A DNA stretch of 60,936 nucleotides, taken from the NCBI GenBank assembly GCA_944320795.1, contig CALUIU010000020.1, positions 1 to 60,936 of the forward strand. The letters run 5' to 3'. Made by a program: the position numbers and the translations under genes. Of this stretch, positions 10,437-36,293 are shown in pieces. This stretch comes from Candidatus Paraprevotella stercoravium (lineage in GTDB: Bacteria; Bacteroidota; Bacteroidia; Bacteroidales; Bacteroidaceae). A model generated the notes under the pieces. The model was given only the letters and a program-made list of their open reading frames with translations. It did no database searches and was not told where the DNA came from. Within the stretch, counting starts at the first letter, position 1. Each line of letters opens with the position of its first letter.

Positions 10437-11600
10437 ATGAAAATCTTCAAAAAGAAACAAAAGGAAGCTGTTGGCAGAAGAAAGTCCCTTTCAAGACTTT
10501 CTTCTGCCAATCCGTTGAATCGGTTGGACCGCTATTTGATTGGTAAATTCTTAGGTACATACTTTTTTTCAATAATCCTGATTATTTCCATTGCCATTGT
10601 TTTTGACTACAATGAGAACATTGATAAGTTTACAACAAACAATGCGCCGCTTAAAGACATCGTATTCGAATACTATGCCAATTTTGTCCCCTACTATTCG
10701 AATCTGTTCAGCCCGCTGTTCGTATTTATTTCAGTGATTTTCTTTACCTCCAAATTAGCTGAGAATTCTGAGATTATCGCTATGATGTCTACTGGTATGA
10801 GTTTCGAGCGCCTGATGCGTCCCTATATGGTATCGGCGGCCATCATTGCTTTAATGACATTTCTGCTGGGAGCATATGTTATTCCCCGAGGAAGTGAGCG
10901 GCGACTGAATTTTGAGAATGTCTATAAAAAGAAACAGAAGGCTAATTTTGCCCAAAACGTACAGTTGCAGGTCGATACCGGCGTCATTGCCTTTATCGAG
11001 CATTTTGACGGAGATACCAAGACCGGATACCGTTTCTCGTTGGATAAATTCGAGAACAAGAAACTGGTTTCCCATCTTACAGCCAGTACCATAAAATATG
11101 ATACGCTGTCCGACGAGCAATATCACTGGCAGATCAGCAATTATACCATTCGCGAAATGAAGGGTATGCGTGAACACATCACTTCCGGAATGAAACTTGA
11201 TTCATTGATCCGGATAGAGCCGGCAGATTTTCTGGAGGTACGTGATCAGCAGGAAATCCTGACGAATCCGGAATTGAAAGAATATATCGAAAAGCAGAAA
11301 CGGCGTGGTTTGGGAAATATCAAGCCTTTTGAGGTTGAATATTACAAGCGCTATGCCACTCCATTCGCATCCTTTATCCTGACAACCATCGGTTTGTCGC
11401 TTTCTGCCCGCAAGCGGAAAGGAGGTATGGGTATGTATTTGGGTATTGGTTTGGGTCTGAGTGCCTCTTATATTTTGTTCCAGACAATCTCAGCCACATT
11501 GGCCATAAACGCCGACTGGCCTTCAGCCTTGGCCGTATGGCTGCCGAATATTATATTTACTGTTATTGCTTTCTTCCTTTATAAGAAAGCACCAAGATAA
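10437..11600 (+). CDS. LptF/LptG-family lipopolysaccharide export permease
   Basis: A 387-residue inner-membrane protein of the YjgP/YjgQ family. It has about three N-terminal transmembrane helices (roughly residues 35-150), a periplasmic beta-jellyroll region (about 165-285) and three C-terminal helices (about 300-385). LptF/G pair with the LptB ATPase to drive LPS to the LptC-A-D bridge. Which of the two it is cannot be decided here. ATG 10437 follows the tgt stop by 11 bp; the longer reading from 10383 lies within tgt. The basic N-terminus is consistent with a cytoplasmic start. Confidence 0.85.
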   Translation: MKIFKKKQKEAVGRRKSLSRLSSANPLNRLDRYLIGKFLGTYFFSIILIISIAIVFDYNENIDKFTTNNAPLKDIVFEYYANFVPYYSNLFSPLFVFISVIFFTSKLAENSEIIAMMSTGMSFERLMRPYMVSAAIIALMTFLLGAYVIPRGSERRLNFENVYKKKQKANFAQNVQLQVDTGVIAFIEHFDGDTKTGYRFSLDKFENKKLVSHLTASTIKYDTLSDEQYHWQISNYTIREMKGMREHITSGMKLDSLIRIEPADFLEVRDQQEILTNPELKEYIEKQKRRGLGNIKPFEVEYYKRYATPFASFILTTIGLSLSARKRKGGMGMYLGIGLGLSASYILFQTISATLAINADWPSALAVWLPNIIFTVIAFFLYKKAPR

Positions 11601-24610: not shown

Positions 24611-26509
24611 TCAGTCTAAATATTTATCAATCTGTTTTACAATGTATCTTCTTCGCGACATTATATCGCTCTTGTCCCACTGTAGCATGTATGAAGAATC
24701 CGTTCTTTTCTCGTCGTCAGCCATAATTTTGGAAAACGCGTCAAGAACATGTGGTCTGATATACTCACCTGAAGCCGCTTTCTTCATAATGTCAAAATGC
24801 TTTTGCGTGTATGAAGCATTACCATAACTCCTATTGACTTTATCTTGTAGAAGACATACGTTTCCCAAAGAATTCAGAGGAATAATCTCGCTTGTCAGTT
24901 TCTTGTTGAACCACTCTCTGAACTTGTCATTTTCCAGGATTCGCTCCCAATAGTAGTCAACTAACCCAAAAGCCCATTCTGTGGTCTTTTTTTTGTAGCC
25001 GCACTTGTAAGCTATTCTTATGTAATCCTTCAATGTTTTCATATCATATCCGATGTTGAGCGGTGTTTGTGGAAATATATGCTCTTTGTCTTCTTTGACT
25101 GCTCGAAAATGTGCTGCATCCAGATTGGCTATCGGAAATCTTGTTGTCTTAGAATTCTGAATGCGGATTATATCCAGGAGCACCATCACAGGATTTATGT
25201 CTTCATCATCATACCAATTCTGTTTGAAGTTGAGGTCACTCTCAGAAATAACATCTCCATCTACGTTTGTGGTTTTGAGCACGGATTCTATCCAATCGGT
25301 CTCTCTAATCTTCTTTTTTAAAGTTGAAATGAAAGATGAGTGATTTTTTGAGAACCATAGATTGGTAAGCTCACTGAACGGCATTCCTAGATAAATGGCA
25401 CAGTACATTACCAGATGATATAATTCAGAGTCATCATACCAATGTTCGACAAGACGTTGGATATCCTGCATATACTGAAATATCTGGCACAAATTGTCAG
25501 AATGTTCAAAAAACGCCAACTTGATTTTTCCGCTGCCGTTCAAAAGAGTTTCTTTATGAATGCCCAGATATTCCTGCCCTTTTGGAGTCTGGATTATCAG
25601 TTTGTAAAGGGTATCTATCGGATATTTGCTTTCATCAAACCTGATATGTTCTCCTTTTGAGTTGATATTTGTAGTGAAGTGTCTGAAATACTTCTGCCTC
25701 TCTTCATTGCTCCACCATGCATTGATTGCATCTAGCTTAAGCCCGTTCTTGACACGGTTTTCATTCAGAATAACATTATACCTGATGGAATCATTAACTT
25801 CTTCAATATCCTTTCTGGCAACTCTGGTAATAATCATTGCCCGGATCAGATCCGCTCCATCCAAAGCAACCCGTTTGCCATTAAGATTATCAAACAGGTC
25901 AAACTCTTGATCCGCATTTATCTGGGGAAGATTGACAATCAATTTTACATGATTCATGATTTTATCTTTCATGACCTCCTTTATTTCACCATGCTCCTTG
26001 AACCATAATTCTATCGTTCTGCATGCATTGTACATATAAAATATGTCTTGATAATTGTATTGGTCCGTTTCCTCAATACCTAGCTCATTCCATTCCAGCA
26101 AATTGTCTTCTTCTTTCATGCCGGAATTGTTCTTGAATTCCGAAAGAGTCCAATCAAACACATAATTTTGAAGGAAATCCATAGATTCTTTGCGGATTTC
26201 ATATTGTAATTTCCCTTTTATCAGATTACTTTCACCCAAATATGCAAGGAGCAATGAAAGGGTTGTAAGTCTTTGCTGGCCATCTACTACATTATAATTC
26301 TTATCTTCATTGTTTACCAAAGTTATGTTCTGAAGACAATAAAAGATTTCATTATCCCCATGAGTCTGGAAAGAGTTAATATCATTCAATAACAGTTCTA
26401 TATCCGTTGTTTTCCATTTATAACCACGTTGATATGCTGGAATTGTGAAATGTCTTCCTGTAGGAAGATATATTGAAAATAATTCCTTCACAGAATAAAT
26501 AAGTTCCAT
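24611..26509 (-). CDS. DUF262-DUF1524 GmrSD-like nuclease
   Basis: A 632-residue protein. The N-terminal DUF262 domain has PAYQRGYKWK (24-33) and VDGQQRLTT (75-83). The C-terminal DUF1524-type HNH region has KEHIFPQTP (475-483) and NSLGNVCLLQDKVNRSYGN (546-564), the His and Asn elements expected of a beta-beta-alpha metal nuclease. Single-chain GmrSD/BrxU relatives cut modified phage DNA using NTP binding. It is the first gene of a pair with the nuclease-less DUF262 protein downstream. The target is unknown and could be modified DNA or another phage signal. Confidence 0.87.
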   Translation of the reverse strand: MELIYSVKELFSIYLPTGRHFTIPAYQRGYKWKTTDIELLLNDINSFQTHGDNEIFYCLQNITLVNNEDKNYNVVDGQQRLTTLSLLLAYLGESNLIKGKLQYEIRKESMDFLQNYVFDWTLSEFKNNSGMKEEDNLLEWNELGIEETDQYNYQDIFYMYNACRTIELWFKEHGEIKEVMKDKIMNHVKLIVNLPQINADQEFDLFDNLNGKRVALDGADLIRAMIITRVARKDIEEVNDSIRYNVILNENRVKNGLKLDAINAWWSNEERQKYFRHFTTNINSKGEHIRFDESKYPIDTLYKLIIQTPKGQEYLGIHKETLLNGSGKIKLAFFEHSDNLCQIFQYMQDIQRLVEHWYDDSELYHLVMYCAIYLGMPFSELTNLWFSKNHSSFISTLKKKIRETDWIESVLKTTNVDGDVISESDLNFKQNWYDDEDINPVMVLLDIIRIQNSKTTRFPIANLDAAHFRAVKEDKEHIFPQTPLNIGYDMKTLKDYIRIAYKCGYKKKTTEWAFGLVDYYWERILENDKFREWFNKKLTSEIIPLNSLGNVCLLQDKVNRSYGNASYTQKHFDIMKKAASGEYIRPHVLDAFSKIMADDEKRTDSSYMLQWDKSDIMSRRRYIVKQIDKYLD

Positions 26510-26663
26510 ATTTCTTGTTATTTAAGTATAAGATTGCCGGTTTTGCCTATGGACATCATATTCCATTGTCATTACCCATATCAAACAGAGTAGAATTACA
26601 GGGTTGCAACAGCCCGATAAAGCCATTCTTCTTCGTCCTATAGATTTATAAATAAAAGGATTC

Positions 26664-27437
26664 TTACTGTCTGTTCAACGTATAGTTCAGTTTGGGGTCA
26701 ATCGGATTCATCTGCTGGTCCAGCATCACGAGCTGATCCTTTTTCTTCTCGAAAAACATCTTCGTTTTCTGATCAAAGGAAATCAGTTCCAGAACCGTAG
26801 CGTTCTTATTTCCGGAATGTCCGCGCAGGGTGTATTGCCGTCCGTAAATCATGTCGCATCGGTCCTTTCCGTTTTCGGCTTCCAGATAGTTCAAGGCAGC
26901 CTGAAACACTCCGTCACCACTGTGCTCCTGATGATGGATGGTAACGGTATATTCAATGCCCGGACCGGATGCTGCCGGCAGCGTTCCTTTATAGGTCTGT
27001 GCCACTATCGGACCGCCGTCGGGAACCAGCTTCAGCGAGTCTACCACATCCACGGCATCCACTTTTTCTGTGCGATAATACACTCTTTGATAGGTACCGT
27101 GTTTTCCTACAACCAGCGTATCTTCTGTCAGCCTGATAATATCCAGCGTATCATCAAAAGCGATTGTCTGTCCGTTGCCTACGCTTTTGCCGGAAAGAAT
27201 CAGCGTATCACCTGTTTGTTGCCATTGTTCATAGAGCAAAGTTTTCATGCCGATTGAAGCGGCAGAACCGTCTTCGTTCAGAGTCACTCCCTGAATAAAT
27301 TTGGGGTTGGCCGGCATCACTTCGATCCAGTTTCCGGTAATCTGGTTTTGAGCATCAGAAGTTTCTTGCGCAGGTTTCTTTTCCGGGTTACATGCAGCCA
27401 AAAGCAATAAAGCTGCAAAAGGCATCCATTGTTTCAT
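26664..27437 (-). CDS. Lipocalin-like lipoprotein
   Basis: A 257-residue lipoprotein with lipobox LLAAC (Cys16). Two beta-rich halves follow. The first (about 35-120) has ITGNWIEVMP, as in the lipocalin-like family of Bacteroidales. The second (about 140-257) has YTVTIHHQEHSGDGVF, recalling NlpE/META-type sensors. Its precise function is unknown. Base composition resembles the housekeeping genes, unlike the AT-rich defence genes on both sides, so it is probably a resident gene separating two accessory blocks. It has its own promoter at 27488-27519. Confidence 0.65.
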   Translation of the reverse strand: MKQWMPFAALLLLAACNPEKKPAQETSDAQNQITGNWIEVMPANPKFIQGVTLNEDGSAASIGMKTLLYEQWQQTGDTLILSGKSVGNGQTIAFDDTLDIIRLTEDTLVVGKHGTYQRVYYRTEKVDAVDVVDSLKLVPDGGPIVAQTYKGTLPAASGPGIEYTVTIHHQEHSGDGVFQAALNYLEAENGKDRCDMIYGRQYTLRGHSGNKNATVLELISFDQKTKMFFEKKKDQLVMLDQQMNPIDPKLNYTLNRQ

Positions 27438-27487
27438 AGGGTAATCATTTTGAATTGAAAATTGTTAGTTGAATTAAGGTATGTGCA

Positions 27488-27519
27488 CAAAGATAATGGA
27501 ATCACCTGTTCCTGTCAAG
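27488..27519 (-). promoter_or_regulatory. Promoter of the lipocalin-like lipoprotein
   Basis: On the minus strand CTTG (27516-27519) and TATCTTTG (27488-27495) are 20 bp apart, matching the Bacteroidetes consensus. It lies about 50 bp upstream of the ATG. Between here and the hipBA promoter (27520-27850) no gene was seen, only AT-rich sequence with a small GTCTAAACAGAC dyad. Confidence 0.65.
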
Positions 27520-27852
27520 AAGATTTTTTTCCCATCGTTAACAGCTTCTCATACAGCATTCTGAGGGATAGCACTGTTTGGTCGTATGTAAGTCGTTGAT
27601 ATTCAAAAGAGAAAAAGATCTATCTTCTGTCTAAACAGACAAATCTTTGGAAACCCTCTTCCCTTTCATTTCGGTATTTTTTATGAAAGAAAAGCCTTTT
27701 TGCTTTTTGATTAACGTAAATACCCTTTATAGACTTATCATCAAATGAAGATAGTAGTTTTATAACAATTTGACATAGGTCATATAGGTTCTCTTTGATT
27801 AGAAAAAAGTAAGAAAAACAAATCTAAAAAAGGCTAGAATCATACAAAATTA

Positions 27853-27887
27853 TTTGTCAAAGAGCGTAGTAATTACTATATTTGACA
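27853..27887 (+). promoter_or_regulatory. hipBA promoter with overlapping operator-like dyads
   Basis: TTTG (27853-27856) and TATATTTG (27877-27884) are 20 bp apart, a near-perfect Bacteroidetes promoter. The same stretch holds TGTCAAA (27855-27861) and its inverted copy TTTGACA (27881-27887). Between them lies a perfect 12-bp palindrome, TAGTAATTACTA (27867-27878). The dyads cover both promoter boxes, as expected for autorepression by the HipB-like protein encoded next. Confidence 0.75.
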
Positions 27888-27937
27888 TATTATATTAAGA
27901 GATAAATATATATAATTATATTTTGGCAGAATATATT

Positions 27938-28249
27938 ATGGAATATAGTTTTGATATTTTCGATAAGAATCCTGAGCGACTGGCAACAATCTTGGCAGAA
28001 AACTGTCGTAAGCGCAGACTTGACAAAGGTCTGAGCAGACGCAGTCTTTCTGAAAGAACGGGTATCCCGGAACCGACGCTCGAGCGCTTTGAAACCAAAG
28101 GAAAGGTATCTCTCGAAGCATTTCTGAAATTGGTCGTTGAATTTGGCTGGTTTGACGAAATGAGTGCTATTATGAGTAAAAGTAAGTTCACCACGGGAGA
28201 GGAACTTGAGACAATAAATAAGAACCAAGGAAGACAGAAAGGGCGATGA
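27938..28249 (+). CDS. HipB-like HTH antitoxin/repressor
   Basis: A 103-residue XRE-family protein. The helix-turn-helix lies at about residues 15-70, with LATILAENCRKRRLDKGLSR and RTGIPEPTLERFETKG as the recognition region. HipB proteins neutralise HipA kinases and repress the operon. The ATG at 27938 is chosen over an in-frame TTG at 27923. The stop overlaps the hipA-like start by 4 bp (ATGA). The dyads over the promoter at 27853-27887 are likely operators. Confidence 0.85.
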   Translation: MEYSFDIFDKNPERLATILAENCRKRRLDKGLSRRSLSERTGIPEPTLERFETKGKVSLEAFLKLVVEFGWFDEMSAIMSKSKFTTGEELETINKNQGRQKGR

Positions 28250-29373
28250 AAGATATACTGAAAATCATAGTTTCATTAAACGGACGTACAGTCGGCACTT
28301 TGCAGATGACACCCGAAAGAGACCGGAGTGTGTTCGAGTACGACAAGGATTGGATAGCAAGTGGGTTCTCGATATCCCCATGGGAATTGCCACTCCAGAC
28401 GGGACTCATATACTCAAAAGAAAATAGTTTTGGTGGCGGATTTGCAGCGTTTGAGGACAGTATGCCGGACGGGTACGGGCTATATCTGCTTGACAGAATG
28501 CTTCGACGTGAAGGCTGTTCTTTGGCCGAACTATCTCCTCTTCAGAGGCTGTCTCTGGTTGGCAGCTCCGGAATGGGAGCACTTTGCTATAAGCCAGAAG
28601 CTTCCAAAGAACATCCTACTACCATTACAGACAACGACTTTGACGAACTTCAGCGTAAAGCTATTAATGTACTCTCCGAGAAAAGCGATGCGGATGCATC
28701 CTTTCTTTACTACAATAGTCGAAATTCTGGCGGAGCAAGGCCAAAGGCGGTATTTAAGGCTGCTGACGGTTCGGAATGGATTGTAAAATTCAGACATATA
28801 TACGATCCCTCAGATATTGGTAAGACAGAATATCAATACATGAGGACAGCCAAGAAATGTGGAATTGACATTCCTGAAATCCGCCTCATTAATGACCGCT
28901 ACTTTTCAATTAAAAGATTCGATATATACGAAGGTCATCGTATTCATACACTTACTGCGGCAGCTCTTTTACAATCGGATTTTCGCGCTCAGAATATAGA
29001 TTACGTAAATCTTCTTGCCCTAACCGGTTATCTTACTCAAGATCCAGAACAGGTGGAGCAAATGTTTCGCAGGATGGTTTTCAATATTGTATGCGCCAAC
29101 AAGGACGATCACGCCAAGAATTTCAGTTTTCTCTGCGAAAACGGCAGATGGACACTTGCTCCTGCATACGACATTACTTACTCTCCGGAAGGCACCAGAG
29201 GCGAACATGCAACATCTGTCAAATACTCGGGCAATCCAAGTCTTCAAGATATCATTTCTGCCGGAACAGGTATCCGTATAAGCCGAAAACGCTGCATTGA
29301 AATTATTGAAGAAATCGAATCTGTCTGCTATGCAGAACTTGATATTGATAAAATAGTAAAAATCAAAGGTTAA
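28246..29373 (+). CDS. HipA-like serine/threonine kinase toxin
   Basis: A 375-residue HipA-family protein with its N-terminal subdomain (about 1-110), then the kinase. Visible parts are a Gly-rich loop NSGGARPKA (160-168), ATP-binding Lys181 in WIVKFR, the catalytic loop ANKDDHAKN (284-292, Asp288) and the metal-binding AYDIT (307-311, Asp309). HipA kinases phosphorylate glutamyl-tRNA synthetase or other tRNA synthetases and stop growth. The target here is unknown. It is coupled to the HTH gene by a 4-bp overlap and convergent with the restriction operon. Confidence 0.88.
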   Translation: MKDILKIIVSLNGRTVGTLQMTPERDRSVFEYDKDWIASGFSISPWELPLQTGLIYSKENSFGGGFAAFEDSMPDGYGLYLLDRMLRREGCSLAELSPLQRLSLVGSSGMGALCYKPEASKEHPTTITDNDFDELQRKAINVLSEKSDADASFLYYNSRNSGGARPKAVFKAADGSEWIVKFRHIYDPSDIGKTEYQYMRTAKKCGIDIPEIRLINDRYFSIKRFDIYEGHRIHTLTAAALLQSDFRAQNIDYVNLLALTGYLTQDPEQVEQMFRRMVFNIVCANKDDHAKNFSFLCENGRWTLAPAYDITYSPEGTRGEHATSVKYSGNPSLQDIISAGTGIRISRKRCIEIIEEIESVCYAELDIDKIVKIKG

Positions 29374-29416: not shown

Positions 29417-29866
29417 TCATTGAGGTTCAGCTACTTTACATGATTCCTCAACTACCTGATATTGTTTTGTACACCTGTCACTTAAGAAAATATGATTCAG
29501 TGTATACTCCAGTGATTTCAAAGTCTGTTGGCGGACTTTCGGCTTTAGCTGGCATTCCCAGATGGTAATGCAATGCCAACCCATAGATGCCAGCTGGCGT
29601 TGTTCTTCCACGTCACGAACCCGATTCCTTTCGATTTTATTCTGCCAGAACTCAACGTTTGATTTAGGAAGAACAAAATACTTGCATCCCTGATGTCCGT
29701 GCCAAAAGCAGCCGTTTACAAAAATAACCGTTTTGTATTTTCGCAATACAATATCCGGATGCCCCGGGAGGCGTGGATGATTCAGTCTGTAACGGAACCC
29801 ACGACTGAACAAGAACTTCCGTACCAGCAATTCGGGCTTTGTATTCTTGCCCTTTATTGCTGACAT
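29417..29866 (-). CDS. vsr: Very short patch repair endonuclease, N-terminus cut by a nonsense codon
   Basis: A 149-residue Vsr-type endonuclease that nicks next to T:G mismatches arising from deaminated 5-methylcytosine. It has PGHPDIV with catalytic Asp38, NGCFWHGH (51-58) with the metal and catalytic His residues, and WECQL near the end of the core. Upstream in the same frame, ATG 29900-29902 encodes MDKLNKE and then TAA (29879-29881), followed by RHRC and the Met used here. Homologues usually read EQRxxCMS at this point, so TAA appears to replace a Gln CAA. The shortened form lacks the N-terminal helix. It is the last gene of the operon carrying the C5 methyltransferase. Confidence 0.85.
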   Translation of the reverse strand: MSAIKGKNTKPELLVRKFLFSRGFRYRLNHPRLPGHPDIVLRKYKTVIFVNGCFWHGHQGCKYFVLPKSNVEFWQNKIERNRVRDVEEQRQLASMGWHCITIWECQLKPKVRQQTLKSLEYTLNHIFLSDRCTKQYQVVEESCKVAEPQ

Positions 29867-29924: not shown

Positions 29925-32054
29925 TTATTTTAATAGTGACATTGTTATATATTGTGCATCATATCTTGTTTCTGGAGTGAATGCTTTGCGTGACGAATGA
30001 AGAGAAGAGGAATCTAGCTCGTCCGTCTCAAATTCTACGACTGCATACATCTTCGCTGTACTGATGTTCCTATATATATCGGTAGGTATCTCTTCTTCTG
30101 AAAGGAGTTTCACTTTGTAGAGCACCTTGTATAGGTGCTGACCTGCGTCCTTTCTCGTATGGAATAGTATATAACCAATCTCCGACAGATGCTCCACTAT
30201 TTCCATTGAATCTTTTGTATATTTTATACCGATTGCAATTTGACCGTTAGCTAAAAATTTAGCACTTTTAGTTTCGTACTGCTCCATCATAACCAAGAGG
30301 ACGCCATTCTTATCAGATCTTACAACTGCAGACGTACCCAGATTTGTTGCTTCTGTTAGAATACGTTCTGGATCAGCACCTATGCAAACCTCTTCTACAT
30401 AAAATGATTTACGCAACTCATTAAGTAAAGCTTCATTTTCATCTTTATACTTTTTATCCTTATCTAATGCCAATGAAAAGTATTCATCTCTATGGTAAGG
30501 TTGATAAAGTTTTCCTAATACAGATTGAAAATTAGATTTGATATACTCTTCAGCATTGACATCGGAGTGTGCGGTCATAGCATAGAATGTAAAGCGAGAT
30601 TTGAGCATTTCTTGAATTTCTTCTCTAAACCTTTTGCGCACCTTCTGTTTCCACTGATTTTTTGAACTATCGTTGTCTTGTGCATAAAGCGATACAATGT
30701 ACAAAAAATTTACATCATAATGACTAATAAGCAATGTATCTCTATCGAACAATCTATTCTCAAAATGCCGTGAGATAAAAGATTTTTTCTTATTTTCTGT
30801 TGGATATATATCTTGAGAATATGACAAACCTTCATCCATTCGTGCACTAATGAAAAAATTGGGGACAATATTGTATCCTTCAGTTAGTTTATTTCTATAA
30901 CATGTCTCTTCCTGGTGATTGTCTAGAAAAAGATTCATATTCCATTGGATTATATTTCGAGCATAGGTGTATTGTTTATATACCGATTCTGCTGTAATAT
31001 CGTTACCTAACTTATAGTATTTACTATCACCAATGTAGTATATTGACTTATCATTTGTGTTGGTCAATCCTATATCTTCATAAATATGGTCAACACGTTT
31101 TCCATCTTCTTGATCTTTAAGACCAGTAGGCAGATTTTCCTTTTTATCACCTACCAATTCATCAATCATTGCTTCAAATACAATATTATAATTTTGGGCA
31201 ATCAGATACTCCTGCAATTCACTAGCAATAGATATATTATGCGATTTATCAAAGAATGCATAACATAATCCCCATAATTCCAATGATTTATCAGAGAAGT
31301 ACTTATATTTAATTTGTCTTAATCTTACTTTGCCAAATCCATTGAGATAGTTATTGAATTTAGCTCCTGTGATCAAATCAAATCCCACATTTATAAATAC
31401 AGGAAAACCATACTTGCTATTAATATGATGTAGAATGGAAAAGAAAATAATCAATAATTCTTCATCAAAATTAATTTGTCTCTTCTTATTGATAGGATTA
31501 AGATAAATAGGTTCATTGTTTTGAACAATAGCTGTGCAATGAGCAATTGTCCGAGTCCAATTTATCTTATTATGACCTGAATGAATATTTTTCAGAATGG
31601 TCATAAAAAAGTTTTGGTTCTTACGGTTGAACTCAAGCAAGGCAAGCAAAACCTCCAAATAGGTATTACTCATATGTCGATGGTTCATACCAGCTTGCAC
31701 CATTTGCTTATGATAGATGATATTGTTCTTGGGGTTATATTTGTTGAATACGTACAAAGAGCGATATATCCACACAGCAAATTCATAGATAAATTTATGC
31801 TCCTCCCCAGTTAATCCATTTGCTTTTTCTATATGAATGATATCAGCCGGACTTAAATGAGAGAATGCTTTCCCATTTCTATCTATTATGACCTTAGGCA
31901 ATATGAAAACACAATCTCTGATATACGGGTTGTATAAATAACCAACATAATTTATCACAACCTCATGGCTGACGTTCTCAAAGAAATCAAGACCTTTGAG
32001 AACGTCAGTTACTTCAGAAGCTTGGTAATGATAGCCTTCAATTAGTATTCTCAT
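29925..32054 (-). CDS. LlaJI-family restriction endonuclease subunit
   Basis: A 709-residue protein that resembles the LlaJI R2 / McrC-like nuclease family. A PD-(D/E)xK core is visible in the middle: FEAMIDEL (293-300), VDHIYE (321-326) and the YIGDSKYYK strand (340-348) with Asp343 and Lys345. The N-terminal 270 residues and the C-terminal 250 are extra domains of unknown role. It starts 3 bp after the McrB-like gene, its likely NTPase partner. A perfect 15-bp inverted repeat sits inside codons 16-29. The coding sequence is notably AT-rich compared with the flanking core genes. The family call rests on the motif and on the operon context. Confidence 0.78.
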   Translation of the reverse strand: MRILIEGYHYQASEVTDVLKGLDFFENVSHEVVINYVGYLYNPYIRDCVFILPKVIIDRNGKAFSHLSPADIIHIEKANGLTGEEHKFIYEFAVWIYRSLYVFNKYNPKNNIIYHKQMVQAGMNHRHMSNTYLEVLLALLEFNRKNQNFFMTILKNIHSGHNKINWTRTIAHCTAIVQNNEPIYLNPINKKRQINFDEELLIIFFSILHHINSKYGFPVFINVGFDLITGAKFNNYLNGFGKVRLRQIKYKYFSDKSLELWGLCYAFFDKSHNISIASELQEYLIAQNYNIVFEAMIDELVGDKKENLPTGLKDQEDGKRVDHIYEDIGLTNTNDKSIYYIGDSKYYKLGNDITAESVYKQYTYARNIIQWNMNLFLDNHQEETCYRNKLTEGYNIVPNFFISARMDEGLSYSQDIYPTENKKKSFISRHFENRLFDRDTLLISHYDVNFLYIVSLYAQDNDSSKNQWKQKVRKRFREEIQEMLKSRFTFYAMTAHSDVNAEEYIKSNFQSVLGKLYQPYHRDEYFSLALDKDKKYKDENEALLNELRKSFYVEEVCIGADPERILTEATNLGTSAVVRSDKNGVLLVMMEQYETKSAKFLANGQIAIGIKYTKDSMEIVEHLSEIGYILFHTRKDAGQHLYKVLYKVKLLSEEEIPTDIYRNISTAKMYAVVEFETDELDSSSLHSSRKAFTPETRYDAQYITMSLLK
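31969..32008 (-). promoter_or_regulatory. Intragenic hairpin at the start of the endonuclease gene
   Basis: CTGACGTTCTCAAAG (31969-31983) and its exact complement CTTTGAGAACGTCAG (31994-32008) are separated by 10 nt. They lie within codons 16-29 of the LlaJI-like gene, 46 nt after its start codon. The endonuclease mRNA would fold into a 15-bp perfect hairpin here. It could pause RNA polymerase or ribosomes, or mark a processing site. No U tract follows, so a simple intrinsic terminator is unlikely. Confidence 0.6.
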
Positions 32055-32057
32055 TGC

Positions 32058-34499
32058 TTATATTTTTACAATGCTAAAACCTATATTTGCAGAATTAACG
32101 GCGTTAATGAAAGTCTGAATATTCCCGCTACCTACTTGAGTTGATATATATATAGATTCTCCGTTTGAAAGTTTTAACTCTTTAGCTCTTTTATTAACGT
32201 CTATAGACCCCATAGTTCTACTATCAAATTCAGTTTGGGTTTCAACAAGGTGCCCTATTCCGGTATTAAGCCCCATCCAAAAAGTTCGAATATCGATTGC
32301 ATTAGAACTAGATAATTGTTCGCAATATAATTCAATCACACGTCTTACTAATTCACCTTTACCATACATTCCATTACCATTAATGGAATATTTCGAATAG
32401 TCTCTTTGTGAAGAGGGGACACCAGCTTCATCATCAGTGAAATTTTCATCTTGGTTATTCTCTGAATTATAAGAAATAGGATTAATACCATTCGCTTGCA
32501 TAAAAGAATATAACTTTTCTTCTCTTCCTGCTCCAAAGAATTCTATGAAAGTTACTTTCTTGGAACTATTACCATCTACGATTCGGAATATACTCCTATT
32601 GTCATCTGTATAATCCTTGTATACATCATTCCATAAATAGAAAAGTACTTTTGAAACGAACTGATCGCATTTTATGGTTGTACTATTTCCGGCAGGTTTT
32701 GCAAACCAATAGCCCAATTTCTTGTCTTCTGAACCTGTAATTTCATCAATCTTACTATTAATGATAGATATGAAATTCCACCAGTCGTATTTTTTATTTC
32801 CTATTTCTATGACAAAGTCTTTATTTCCCTTTTCTATTGGGATATATTCCCAATCCCAACGACGTTTGAATGCTGAGTCAATAGGAAACAAACTTTGGTC
32901 ACTGGTATTCATTGTTGCCCAGATATATAAATTTGATGGTAAACGCATTTCTTTACCATTCTTTATTGCATCTGGAATATTTGTTGCATTATTGAATTGT
33001 TCTGCTAAATACCTTCTGATATCTTCATCTGGGCAAATAGCGTATTTTGATTCTCCATTTTCTCCTCTGTCTAATAGTTGGAATAAGTCTCCGAATATCT
33101 GAGCACAATTGCCACGATTTATTTCTTCTATAATCAAATAATATGGGGAATTGTCTAACTTATCAATTAAGTTCCAAGAGTTTACATATGCTTTTAAGAA
33201 TGCTTGAGGTACATATTTGTATGAAATATGGGACTCCTTAGATTGTTTTAGATACTCTTCACCTATTGCAATACTTTTATCTAATTCAACCGTATAGCTA
33301 TCAGATATTGCGCAAGATGCTAAGATATCTTTTTTATCTAGTATGTTCAAATTCTTTAATGAACGCCAATATTTTGCTGCAAATTTATGAACAGAATATG
33401 GAACACCACTATTCTTAAATTCAGTCAACTTATTTATGAGCTCCCCTTTGGTATATATTTTATCATCATACCCTTCCATTGTAGGTTTATATGCTCCTAC
33501 AAATGTTGAGTAATCGCTGTCTGGGTGGAATGTTGTACGAATTCTATTATTATCATTAGTACACTCTTCTATTTTATTTGATTTTCCAGTTCCTGGTGCA
33601 CCATAATAAATTATTTGATGCGTATTATTGGGGTCAGAACTATTGAGGTTTAAATTGTCTAATACTTCTTGATATATAACAGTCTTTTTTGGGGAAAGGT
33701 TAAGAGTTGTCTCAACAATATTCTTATAAACATTTAACTCTTTATTATTGTTGCAATGGAATTCATTGTTTTCCAATTTAAGAAACGGATGAAGATTTTC
33801 TCTTACAAATGATTTAAAGATCCTAAAAGGACCAACATCTTCTTGTTCATCTTTTGCAATAACACCTACCTCATTGGATATTCTATTATAAATACCAATT
33901 TGTTGAAATACAACTTCTTCTCCATTAGCACGTATTTTATATTGAGTGTCTTCTGAAAAAGCTGTCAAAATCTGTTTTAATCCTTTACTTATAGCGGTGT
34001 CAGACGGTGAACAATTAAGCCATGAAATAATTTCATTCTTCATTAAATCATTAGGCCATGCCATTAAATACAAATCTAATAATTTCATATTTAATGCAAA
34101 ATTCATGACCTTTCGAAATCGGTCACCACCTGTTCTTTCTTTAGTATCAGTAGTTGGAAAATCAACAAAAGAAACATTAGCTAAATGAAACATTAATCCT
34201 AAACCTACTTGTAAGGCTTCAAGTTGTGATGTTAATAATGGATTATTATTTAAAGAATCCTCATCAATAGTATAATTATCCATAATCCATTGTTTATAAG
34301 AATTCTTTAGAACGAGTTTCTTTTTTCCATTGGATAGCTTTATTTCATCTGCATATACAATCTCATTATTTTTATTATTAGCACAATATAAAAGATAAGA
34401 AAGAGCTACGATAGATGAAATATGATTTAAAGAGGACTTTATTCCCAAACGACAATCTAAGTCGTTCCTCTGTTCTATTTTTGATGGTAATATGGCCAT
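32058..34499 (-). CDS. McrB-like AAA+ restriction subunit
   Basis: An 813-residue AAA+ protein. Walker A is GAPGTGKS (300-307), Walker B is LIIEEINRG (455-463), the McrB signature is MNTSDQS (530-536), and the arginine-finger segment is FKRRWDW (544-550). The first 290 residues should hold the DNA-recognition part; no fold was recognised. In LlaJI and McrBC systems this GTPase recognises the site and translocates DNA for the partner nuclease. Neighbouring genes are 4 bp upstream (C5 methyltransferase) and 3 bp downstream (nuclease), so the operon is very compact. Confidence 0.88.
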   Translation of the reverse strand: MAILPSKIEQRNDLDCRLGIKSSLNHISSIVALSYLLYCANNKNNEIVYADEIKLSNGKKKLVLKNSYKQWIMDNYTIDEDSLNNNPLLTSQLEALQVGLGLMFHLANVSFVDFPTTDTKERTGGDRFRKVMNFALNMKLLDLYLMAWPNDLMKNEIISWLNCSPSDTAISKGLKQILTAFSEDTQYKIRANGEEVVFQQIGIYNRISNEVGVIAKDEQEDVGPFRIFKSFVRENLHPFLKLENNEFHCNNNKELNVYKNIVETTLNLSPKKTVIYQEVLDNLNLNSSDPNNTHQIIYYGAPGTGKSNKIEECTNDNNRIRTTFHPDSDYSTFVGAYKPTMEGYDDKIYTKGELINKLTEFKNSGVPYSVHKFAAKYWRSLKNLNILDKKDILASCAISDSYTVELDKSIAIGEEYLKQSKESHISYKYVPQAFLKAYVNSWNLIDKLDNSPYYLIIEEINRGNCAQIFGDLFQLLDRGENGESKYAICPDEDIRRYLAEQFNNATNIPDAIKNGKEMRLPSNLYIWATMNTSDQSLFPIDSAFKRRWDWEYIPIEKGNKDFVIEIGNKKYDWWNFISIINSKIDEITGSEDKKLGYWFAKPAGNSTTIKCDQFVSKVLFYLWNDVYKDYTDDNRSIFRIVDGNSSKKVTFIEFFGAGREEKLYSFMQANGINPISYNSENNQDENFTDDEAGVPSSQRDYSKYSINGNGMYGKGELVRRVIELYCEQLSSSNAIDIRTFWMGLNTGIGHLVETQTEFDSRTMGSIDVNKRAKELKLSNGESIYISTQVGSGNIQTFINAVNSANIGFSIVKI

Positions 34500-34503
34500 A
34501 AAC

Positions 34504-35562
34504 CTAGTTATTTATATTTGATTCATTTTTTATTATCTCTTTAGCTATAGCATACGCTAAATATGGTGGAACAGCATTTCCTACTTGTTTCATTTGTGAA
34601 GTTTTAGAACCATAAAAAATAAAACTATCAGGAAATGTTTGTATTCTTGCGGCTTCTCTAGTTGTAATACATCTATTTAATATCGGATGAGTAAACCTAC
34701 CAGACGATGGAGTATCAAAACGAGTCGTAATGGTTGCAGCCACATCATTTTCAAGCAAGCGGCAATATGTTCCGCTATAAATAGACTTCGTACGTTCTTC
34801 TTCTGGGAGAACTTTTCCACCTTCTCCAATGGGAATCATTGCCATTCTTCTCAACGCTGTTAAACTATGTTTTGTAGCAACATGATTATACAAAACCAGA
34901 GAATCTCCACGTAAATCTTTCTGTAGCTTAGATTCTGGTTTTTTATCATATGCACATTTTTCCTTTCCCTCTCCGGATAATATTATTGGCAAATCTGAGA
35001 TTGCATCTTTAACTGTATTCCTTATACCATTTGGCTTGGGAAATGTAACCCCAAGCTTTCCCTTCTGCCCAATAAATACAGCACGCCTTCTGTCTTGTGG
35101 AACACCAAAATCTATAGCTTTGAGAATATCACAACAAACATCATATCCTAAATTGTTAAAGGCGCGTATTATTTCATCTTTAAAAAAACCATTCTCAGTA
35201 GTTATAATGTTAGGAACATTTTCCAAAACAAAATATTTGGGAGAAAATTCTTCCACAAAACGAATAAATTGCTTAAAAAGGAAATTACGAGGATCATTTA
35301 TACTTAACCGTTTTCCTTTCTGAGAGAATCCTTGGCATGGAGGGCCTCCTACGACTACATCAATCTGTGGATGTTTATTATGTATTTCTTTAAAATCTAA
35401 ATCACAAATATCAGATGCATATACATCAGTATATGGATGATTTTTTTTATATGACATTGCAATTTCTTTATCAAATTCTATAGCAATAGCAATCTCAAAA
35501 CCTGCTTTGAGAAAACCTTGAGACAATCCACCTGCTCCTGCAAATAAATCAGCGACTTTCAT
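34504..35562 (-). CDS. DNA (cytosine-5)-methyltransferase
   Basis: A 352-residue C5 methyltransferase with the usual motifs in order: DLFAGAGGLSQGF (5-17, SAM binding), GGPPCQGFS (72-80) with nucleophile Cys76, VLENVPN (112-118), a target-recognition region (about 190-270), REAARIQTFP, and QVGNAVPPYLA at the C-terminus. It should protect one strand of the operon's recognition site. Its start overlaps the stop of the DPPY methyltransferase by 4 bp. The Vsr at the operon end fits a 5-methylcytosine-producing system. Confidence 0.95.
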   Translation of the reverse strand: MKVADLFAGAGGLSQGFLKAGFEIAIAIEFDKEIAMSYKKNHPYTDVYASDICDLDFKEIHNKHPQIDVVVGGPPCQGFSQKGKRLSINDPRNFLFKQFIRFVEEFSPKYFVLENVPNIITTENGFFKDEIIRAFNNLGYDVCCDILKAIDFGVPQDRRRAVFIGQKGKLGVTFPKPNGIRNTVKDAISDLPIILSGEGKEKCAYDKKPESKLQKDLRGDSLVLYNHVATKHSLTALRRMAMIPIGEGGKVLPEEERTKSIYSGTYCRLLENDVAATITTRFDTPSSGRFTHPILNRCITTREAARIQTFPDSFIFYGSKTSQMKQVGNAVPPYLAYAIAKEIIKNESNINN

Positions 35563-36293
35563 TTTTTTTCCAATATTCTTTGAGTTGCTATATTATAATA
35601 CTTTTCATCTAATTCAAAACCAATAAAGTTTCTATTCAATAGTTCACAAACAACCCCAGTACTACCGCTCCCCATAAAAGGATCCAATATAACATCTTTT
35701 TCATTAGACAATATTTCTATAAAGTGTTGTAATAATACTTTGGGTTTCTGTGTTGGATGTTTCCCCAATTTATGTTCTGCAGCAGATATAGTTGAAGTCT
35801 CTATAAAATCATGTATGGGTCTTCCATTATTATTAAATGTTCCTGTATGTCCATCATTAATGAAATATAACCACGGTTCTATTGAGTTAATAAAATGCAA
35901 ATTCATATTCCGAGGCATGGGGTTAGTTTTATGCCAAGCACCAACCGTTTTATAATATAAACCGACATCGGTAGCTAGTTTAATGATGGTTTCAACCTTC
36001 ATTATTGACATAAACATTATGAGTGAGCCTTTTGATTTAAGTACCCTAGCACACTCTTTCATAAACTTTTTCATTACTCTACTCCATTGGGCATATTCCA
36101 TATCATCCCAACCTGAATATGCAAAATGATTATTCCTCATTCCTTTTATATTCGTCCCCCTTTTATGCATAAAAAGGCCTAAATTGTATGGTGGATCGGT
36201 TAATATTAAATCTACGGATTTGTCAGGTAAACTCTTAATTAATTTTAAACAGTCACCACATCCTATTAAAGAGTTTGTTGTTATTTGTTTCAT
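35559..36293 (-). CDS. Beta-class N6-adenine/N4-cytosine DNA methyltransferase
   Basis: A 244-residue methyltransferase. The catalytic motif DPPY (33-36) comes before the SAM motif DPFMGSGSTG (204-213), the order of the beta class. DPPY favours N6-adenine but N4-cytosine is not excluded. The target-recognition segment lies between about 40 and 190. It is the first gene of the restriction operon and overlaps the C5 methyltransferase by 4 bp. Two methyltransferases of different chemistry suggest an asymmetric site modified differently on each strand (inference). Confidence 0.93.
   Translation of the reverse strand: MKQITTNSLIGCGDCLKLIKSLPDKSVDLILTDPPYNLGLFMHKRGTNIKGMRNNHFAYSGWDDMEYAQWSRVMKKFMKECARVLKSKGSLIMFMSIMKVETIIKLATDVGLYYKTVGAWHKTNPMPRNMNLHFINSIEPWLYFINDGHTGTFNNNGRPIHDFIETSTISAAEHKLGKHPTQKPKVLLQHFIEILSNEKDVILDPFMGSGSTGVVCELLNRNFIGFELDEKYYNIATQRILEKK

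Follow-up and report, generated by a model that had tools for sequence, protein, structure and literature searches.

A probable conserved mRNA structure within the first codons of LlaJI-type restriction nuclease genes, with a perfect inverted repeat as one of its arms

The avoidance of self-cutting upon the arrival of a restriction system in a new host is an old question, and the answers given to it have mostly been of transcriptional control. At the level of translation, hairpins, antisense RNA, coupling and the nature of the early codons are listed as possible controls in a 2025 review, where hairpins that limit access to nuclease start sites are described with Cfr9I as the cited case (PMC12707154), while an antisense RNA has been reported for EcoRI (PMC3874152). 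As in these two systems, RNA pairing is predicted to limit nuclease translation in the gene described here; however, the Cfr9I and EcoRI controls are described as acting at the start site or in trans (PMC12707154, PMC3874152), whereas the present structure is internal to the coding sequence and, in the family, keeps the start region open. In the case of EcoVIII, the synthesis of the nuclease is slowed by rare arginine codons early in its gene (PMC6456624), so that there, as predicted here, silent features in the first codons of the nuclease gene limit its synthesis, although by codon rarity and not by RNA structure. The overlapping C and R genes of PvuII resemble this locus in having an upstream gene that ends at the nuclease start and hairpins predicted nearby, but disruption of the hairpins and displacement of the stop codon are described as having no significant effect in that system (PMC2997769), which is a warning for the present reading. 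In gene content the likeness is to the LlaJI cassette, in which two methyltransferase genes are followed by an McrB-related gene and the nuclease gene, with the difference that both LlaJI methyltransferases are 5mC enzymes and one of those found here is of the N4/N6 type; the main text of the LlaJI paper discusses transcriptional regulation and contains 0 occurrences of "translation" and of "secondary structure" (PMC1459862). Among the matches listed in open-access full text, no report of the present structure was found.

The restriction locus and its inverted repeat

The window, that is, the whole stretch of 60,936 nucleotides of Candidatus Paraprevotella stercoravium DNA that was analysed, carries a five-gene cluster on its minus strand, in the order N4/N6 methyltransferase, C5 methyltransferase, McrB-like GTPase, nuclease and Vsr. 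This order bears out the earlier note made from the sequence, which had the nuclease last but one and the methyltransferases first.

35559 to 36293, minus strand: N4/N6 methyltransferase gene
34504 to 35562, minus strand: C5-cytosine methyltransferase gene
32058 to 34499, minus strand: McrB-like GTPase gene (AAA_5, weak McrB match; solved McrB GTPases at 6.2e-13)
29925 to 32054, minus strand: putative LlaJI-type restriction nuclease gene, 709 aa (its homologue L004 matches PF09563 RE_LlaJI above the cut-off)
29417 to 29866, minus strand: Vsr-type nicking endonuclease gene
31969 to 32008, minus strand: inverted repeat, helix P2; perfect 15-bp stem with a 10-nt loop, nt 46-85 of the coding sequence (A of ATG = 0)

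Searches of Pfam, NCBIfam and PADLOC gave no match to the window nuclease protein itself, and RE_LlaJI gave none at E <= 1; one of the seven family members scanned, L004 (54% identical to the window protein), scores 29.1 bits with RE_LlaJI (PF09563), above the cut-off of 23.6. No closer copy of the nuclease gene was found in plasmids, phages or viral contigs, where the best matches reach 32%, 52% and 54%, respectively. Directly upstream of the nuclease, 51 of 52 loci encode an McrB-related GTPase, and of the 52 loci long enough to judge, 36 have an upstream C5 methyltransferase gene; in the window both methyltransferases of the cassette (C5 and N4/N6) are present. Only 3 nt separate the end of the McrB-like stop codon from the nuclease start in the window, and among 145 genes (window gene included) the upstream stop overlaps the nuclease start or lies at most 4 nt away in 96, and 5-15 nt away in 36 more. 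P2 is present in 9 of 20 loci with a detected methyltransferase against 2 of 9 without, numbers too small for a claim.

Within the genus, 2 of 18 genomes have a match to the nuclease, namely the window's own and G160, whose copy (L097) is 52% identical and has no strong stem. In G160 this nuclease of the same family shares contig C29 (L340-L341, L097) with lptG, as in the window, and perhaps this is the same locus with an exchanged restriction system. Beside the restriction genes, at window positions 24611-29373, are genes for a GmrSD-like protein (Pfam GmrSD_N, GmrSD_C) and for a HipA-like one that has a helix-turn-helix partner, which suggests a defence cluster.

The arms of the repeat (31969-31983 and 31994-32008) are 15 nt long each, 100% complementary and 10 nt apart, confirming the perfect repeat that had been placed in codons 16-29, starting 46 nt into the nuclease gene. 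It had also been called very unlikely by chance, and it does lie far beyond chance, though the genome has several other such stems. With the protein held fixed, 12 of 12 tested pairs are Watson-Crick against a mean of 6.8, and none of 500 synonymous permutations reaches 12. The 201-nt RNA containing the repeat folds at -53.9 kcal/mol, compared with -36.8 ± 3.9 for dinucleotide shuffles (z -4.4), and in the RNA fold the helix has 16 bp with an 8-nt loop.

Several ordinary identities were considered for the repeat. An intrinsic terminator is ruled out, since a G+C-rich stem and a U run are needed and no T run follows the stem on either strand as read from the sequence. A dispersed repeat is likewise rejected: elsewhere in the genome the arm never occurs with fewer than 2 mismatches, and its 5 sites with 2 mismatches are about what the reversed control pattern gives. 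As for a known RNA family, Rfam returns 7 matches up to E 10, all far under their gathering scores.

Pairing across the nuclease family

The family was sampled as 192 coding sequences from 80 named-record loci (80 of 211 relatives were kept) and from further genomes, the genome searches being samples of 399, 393, 398 and 251 genomes; 146 sequences, window gene included, are non-redundant at 92%. The arms of the repeat pair codon to codon, D16 with V27, V17 with N26, L18 with E25 and K19 with F24 (codons counted from 0), or DVLK against FENV, and a peptide close to [DE]-V-[LI]-x-G-[IL]-D-x-L-E-N-V is widely kept in homologues and supplies part of the complementarity. The stem had been thought to constrain the protein; it is partly the reverse, with the conserved peptide providing much of the pairing. 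Because so much complementarity comes free with the peptide, each gene was compared with its own synonymous-codon permutations. At the same positions, 74 other homologues have 492 Watson-Crick pairs against 425 ± 10 under permutation, a figure inflated by relatedness.

Folding excess was scanned by synonymous-codon permutation in 100 windows of 16 codons each along 145 homologues, with the window gene excluded. The windows starting at codons 12, 30, 33, 18, 15 and 36 are the six lowest of all, with mean z from -1.33 to -0.91 over a background of -0.27 (sd 0.29), and in random subsets of 29 homologues the lowest window has its start within codons 9-36 in 200 of 200. The codon 0 window is the least folded (+0.47): the start region of the family is less folded than expected, and shared folding sets in from about nt 15. 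Simple pair counting ranks the repeat axis 7th of 5622 in the first homologue set and 14th to 19th of 5472 in the enlarged set, a modest excess; the picture from folding is clearer. Pair maps, axis scan, helix cut-offs and the G·U and A·C counts are based on 87 of the 145 homologues, those without gaps up to codon 56, and the axis scan is reported for the 14 windows, out of 28, in which 40 or more homologues are ungapped. Subtracting permuted from real base-pair maps leaves three main helices, P2, P3 and P1, and with relatives down-weighted their axes, 131 (P2), 171 (P1) and 240 (P3), hold ranks 1, 2 and 3 of 4774, with excesses of 3.47, 3.02 and 1.93 pairs, respectively, compared with 0.95 for the best axis elsewhere in the gene. 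In family coordinates P2 joins nt 49-63 with 68-82 (about codons 16-28); the remaining elements are placed as follows.

31898 to 32039, minus strand: P1 in its family placement, pairing 32032-32039 with 31898-31905 and 32024-32029 with 31906-31911 (codons 5-7 with 49-52, nt 15-22 with 149-156); long-range helix closing the junction
31922 to 31946, minus strand: P3 in its family placement, pairing 31937-31946 with 31922-31931 (nt 108-117 with 123-132, about codons 36-44)
31905 to 32052, minus strand: closing helix particular to the window gene, pairing 32045-32052 with 31905-31912 (nt 2-9 with 142-149), from base-pair probabilities and the minimum-energy fold
31887 to 32051, minus strand: modelled element of 165 positions (covariance model R1), scoring 116.5 bits; R1 was trained on 60 sequences, the window gene among them

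With cut-offs of at least 6 expected pairs for P2 and at least 5 each for P1 and P3, the helices are formed in 36 (P2), 42 (P1) and 46 (P3) of the 87 homologues, all three in 20 and none in 23. The structure is retained in relatives beyond the needs of protein and codon use, and it is not universal. A comparison of homologues had been proposed in the earlier note as a way to check the pairing, and its outcome is divided: the excess falls on the very axis of the repeat, but the perfect stem is not conserved. Homologues that keep the peptide without the pairing, named there as evidence against the reading, do in part exist, since in the two nearest (72 and 71% identity) much of the peptide is retained while only 6 of 12 pairs at the repeat are Watson-Crick, and 51 of the 87 ungapped homologues lack a stem of at least 6 expected pairs.

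Over the helices together, 112 cells have changed on both sides, against 65.4 ± 7.5 when shuffled (reached in 0 of 500) and 61-76 with slid partners, and 70.9% of cells are paired against 38-52% when slid; for P2 alone the both-side-changed cells number 82, compared with 52.2 ± 7.0 in column shuffles (0 of 500) and 37-47 slid. Pairs that show any change on both sides are not exceptionally numerous, at 17 for the helices together (reached by 36 of 500 shuffles) and 11 for P2 alone (163 of 500). Among the cells of P2, G-C and A-U combinations are in excess (714 versus 618 ± 12), G·U stands at expectation (159 versus 157 ± 9) and A·C is depleted (115 versus 151 ± 8). P3 follows the same pattern, with A·C depleted and G·U at expectation, while in P1 A·C is depleted and G·U falls as well (202 versus 257 ± 11). 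Since A·C is depleted in all three helices and G·U is kept in both hairpins, most evidence points to a pairing in the sense RNA; this is firm for P2 and P3 and weaker for P1, because P1 loses G·U cells too.

Hold-out sequences gave mixed results. P2 is formed in L250, when its two-codon insertion is allowed for (12.2 expected pairs against 2.2 permuted); L362 has 12.8 expected pairs, which is not significant given permuted values of 9.0 or 7.9; and in the near twins L251 and L252 P2 is absent. Representatives were limited to 60 of 67 by leaving out the 7 most divergent (L115, L116, L118, L119, L196, L197 and L202), and RNAalifold gave no common fold in the 60-sequence alignment. Searched against 251 family genomes, the covariance model gives 36 hits spread over 33 of them, and every hit coincides with the start of a listed nuclease match; as the model also scores conserved coding sequence, this search says no more than that the element did not turn up at other places. 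Synonymous codon identity points to the same region within clades, the top 12 of 525 windows starting at codons 5-36 in the [HYQ]GI clade (n=34) and at codons 21-34 in the KDI clade (n=15), with a third clade mostly peaking here, even though synonymous change is near saturation in the largest clade (identity 0.447 versus 0.383 expected). When the 87 homologues are pooled the synonymous peak is not unique, codons 475 and 273 ranking equal.

Base-pair probabilities and the register test place P1 and P3 of the window gene outside the family register. Its predicted closing helix reaches the last base of the start codon, and a shifted hairpin within 31928-31962 replaces P3. The modelled fold of the window gene is one in which P2 has grown very strong while P1 and P3 have moved register.

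Gene starts, coding hairpins and other explanations

An explanation that we regard as improbable would take these signals for a general property of gene starts, consisting of an open start, firmer folding after it and slow synonymous change, with nothing specific to this gene. In its favour, 400 random ORFs (nuclease genes included) show a folding dip to -0.44 at codons 12-15, the MalQ-like control (29 genes) reaches -0.56 at codon 12, and low synonymous change at the 5' ends of bacterial genes may be mutational according to a study of such ends (PMC12725619), which weakens the evidence from synonymous identity but does not explain the pairing-specific signals. The nuclease family nevertheless descends to -1.33, whereas the C5 methyltransferase control (46 genes) goes no lower than -0.52 and the MalQ-like genes are nowhere below -0.88, although Vsr genes, with uncertain starts, do reach -1.24. 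Likewise, no axis in the control windows covered is as high as axes 131 and 171, a comparison of small samples with the MalQ-like 5' window left out. The third helix is less distinctive: control genes match its excess with 2.04-2.58 (n 12-29), and as single axes of 1.6-2.6 pairs occur at small sample size, P3 alone would not convince. The McrB and N4/N6 families, with 2 usable genes each, were left out as controls. In the Vsr genes (41, from nuclease loci) the first codons are strongly folded, with mean z of -1.07 and -1.24, and one axis sum is 2.58 in 13 genes.

Long perfect stems in coding DNA were examined at large. An excess of such stems in prokaryotes has been reported earlier. In ORFs of at least 200 aa, this genome has 4 stems of at least 15 bp over 671 kb, compared with 0 over the 770 kb of the 80 related loci, and eight synonymous shuffles of either set average 0.0; stems of at least 10 bp are themselves over-represented 2.7-fold in this genome (34 versus 12.5) and 2.9-fold in the relatives (41 versus 14.25). 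When ORFs of at least 120 aa are admitted, some of which are probably not genes, the sample of the window's own genome (L210-L249 plus the window) has 8 perfect stems of at least 15 bp in 769 kb of coding sequence against 1 in the 80 related loci (854 kb). Eight stems of at least 12 bp could be aligned to G160, some in doubtful ORFs, and 107 of their 121 pairs are unchanged compared with 74% in the sham; 5 have changed on both sides and all of these are still complementary, while 9-bp stems resemble the sham (73 of 99).

In the genus, the stems of folK and queG share their axis across large divergence. A perfect 17-bp coding stem in folK of the window's own genome (L230:7054-7091, HPPK by Pfam) is identical in G160 (L284), and 14 of 14 other aligned genus members (44-54% identity) share its axis: their best Watson-Crick stems there, allowing loops up to 20, have 6-11 bp and show changes in both arms. 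The 14-bp stem AAAGCCGAGGC/GCCTCGGCTTT in codons 13-23 of queG (L230:13570-13602, also the window's own genome) has nearly constant codons in 14 genus members (49-83% protein identity), and every one of these keeps its axis with 10-16 Watson-Crick pairs. A perfect 16-bp stem at window positions 10471-10510, between tgt and the conserved part of the LptF/LptG gene, has a counterpart of 14 bp in G160 (L254), with two pairs changed on both sides; this stem may precede the true gene start. Selection on coding hairpins, or their mutational upkeep, may be a wider habit, and a rival based on template switching must therefore be kept.

This rival holds that the repeat is functionless, a conserved peptide making the two stretches nearly complementary and template switching (quasipalindrome correction) then perfecting the stem in this lineage. 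The complementary peptide and the over-representation of perfect stems in coding DNA, here and in relatives, fit it, and template switching is documented as perfecting and maintaining stems and as acting in coding DNA (PMC8794818, PMC8604942); however, the 87 homologues show excess pairing on the same axis after peptide and codon use are allowed for, the keeping of G·U with the loss of A·C is not what a DNA-copying process would favour, and a companion long-range helix exists, so that we consider it unlikely, though the strongest of the alternatives. Less likely again is that the fold is a binding or cutting site for an RNA-binding protein (possibly the nuclease itself or its GTPase partner) or an RNase, leading to feedback or selective mRNA decay and not to a passive brake. 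A three-helix junction at a gene start does resemble the leader structures bound by ribosomal proteins (PMC4684408), and the start region stays open, but P2 and P3 are highly variable in sequence among homologues, which speaks against this reading.

A possible brake on nuclease synthesis

The repeat is real, and it belongs to what is probably a conserved mRNA structure of LlaJI-type nuclease genes; such a structure, with the repeat as its strongest arm, P2, is fairly well supported by the homologue comparisons. We give a probability of about one half to the specific reading that the repeat is helix P2 of a cis-acting brake within the first ~52 codons of the nuclease mRNA; a regulatory role of the fold is plausible, and it may limit the amount of a dangerous nuclease that is made. 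The regulatory hairpin proposed in the earlier note thus survives in part: the pairing excess at the exact axis, the both-side changes and the frequent C5 methyltransferase upstream speak for it, but the hairpin is not the whole element and many homologues lack the stem. More tentative is the wider proposal that Bacteroidales LlaJI-type nuclease genes possess a family of cis-acting RNA structures outside Rfam, located in the first 52 codons and selected at silent sites, which would limit or time the nuclease with respect to methylation.

The explanation builds on computed quantities, namely the pairing excess in homologues, its position, most of the signs of sense RNA and an upstream frame that usually ends on or near the nuclease start, from which we infer a brake acting in cis. 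The family element would be a three-way junction made of the long-range helix P1 and hairpins P2 and P3, beginning about 15 nt past the start codon and leaving the start region itself open. A distance of about 15 nt after the start codon corresponds approximately to the edge of an initiating ribosome. The open start and the folding from about nt 15 speak against simple occlusion of the start codon as the family's mode, and in favour of what would be a barrier at the ribosome entrance, with upstream translation feeding the start. Ribosomes ending the upstream McrB-like gene could restart on the nuclease, while the fold at the ribosome entrance would slow fresh initiation and early elongation. 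Little nuclease would then be made per transcript, and the methyltransferases encoded by the upstream genes could accumulate meanwhile. If a conserved fold within the coding sequence of the nuclease itself does act in this way, it would constitute a portable, regulator-free answer to self-cutting that travels with the gene.
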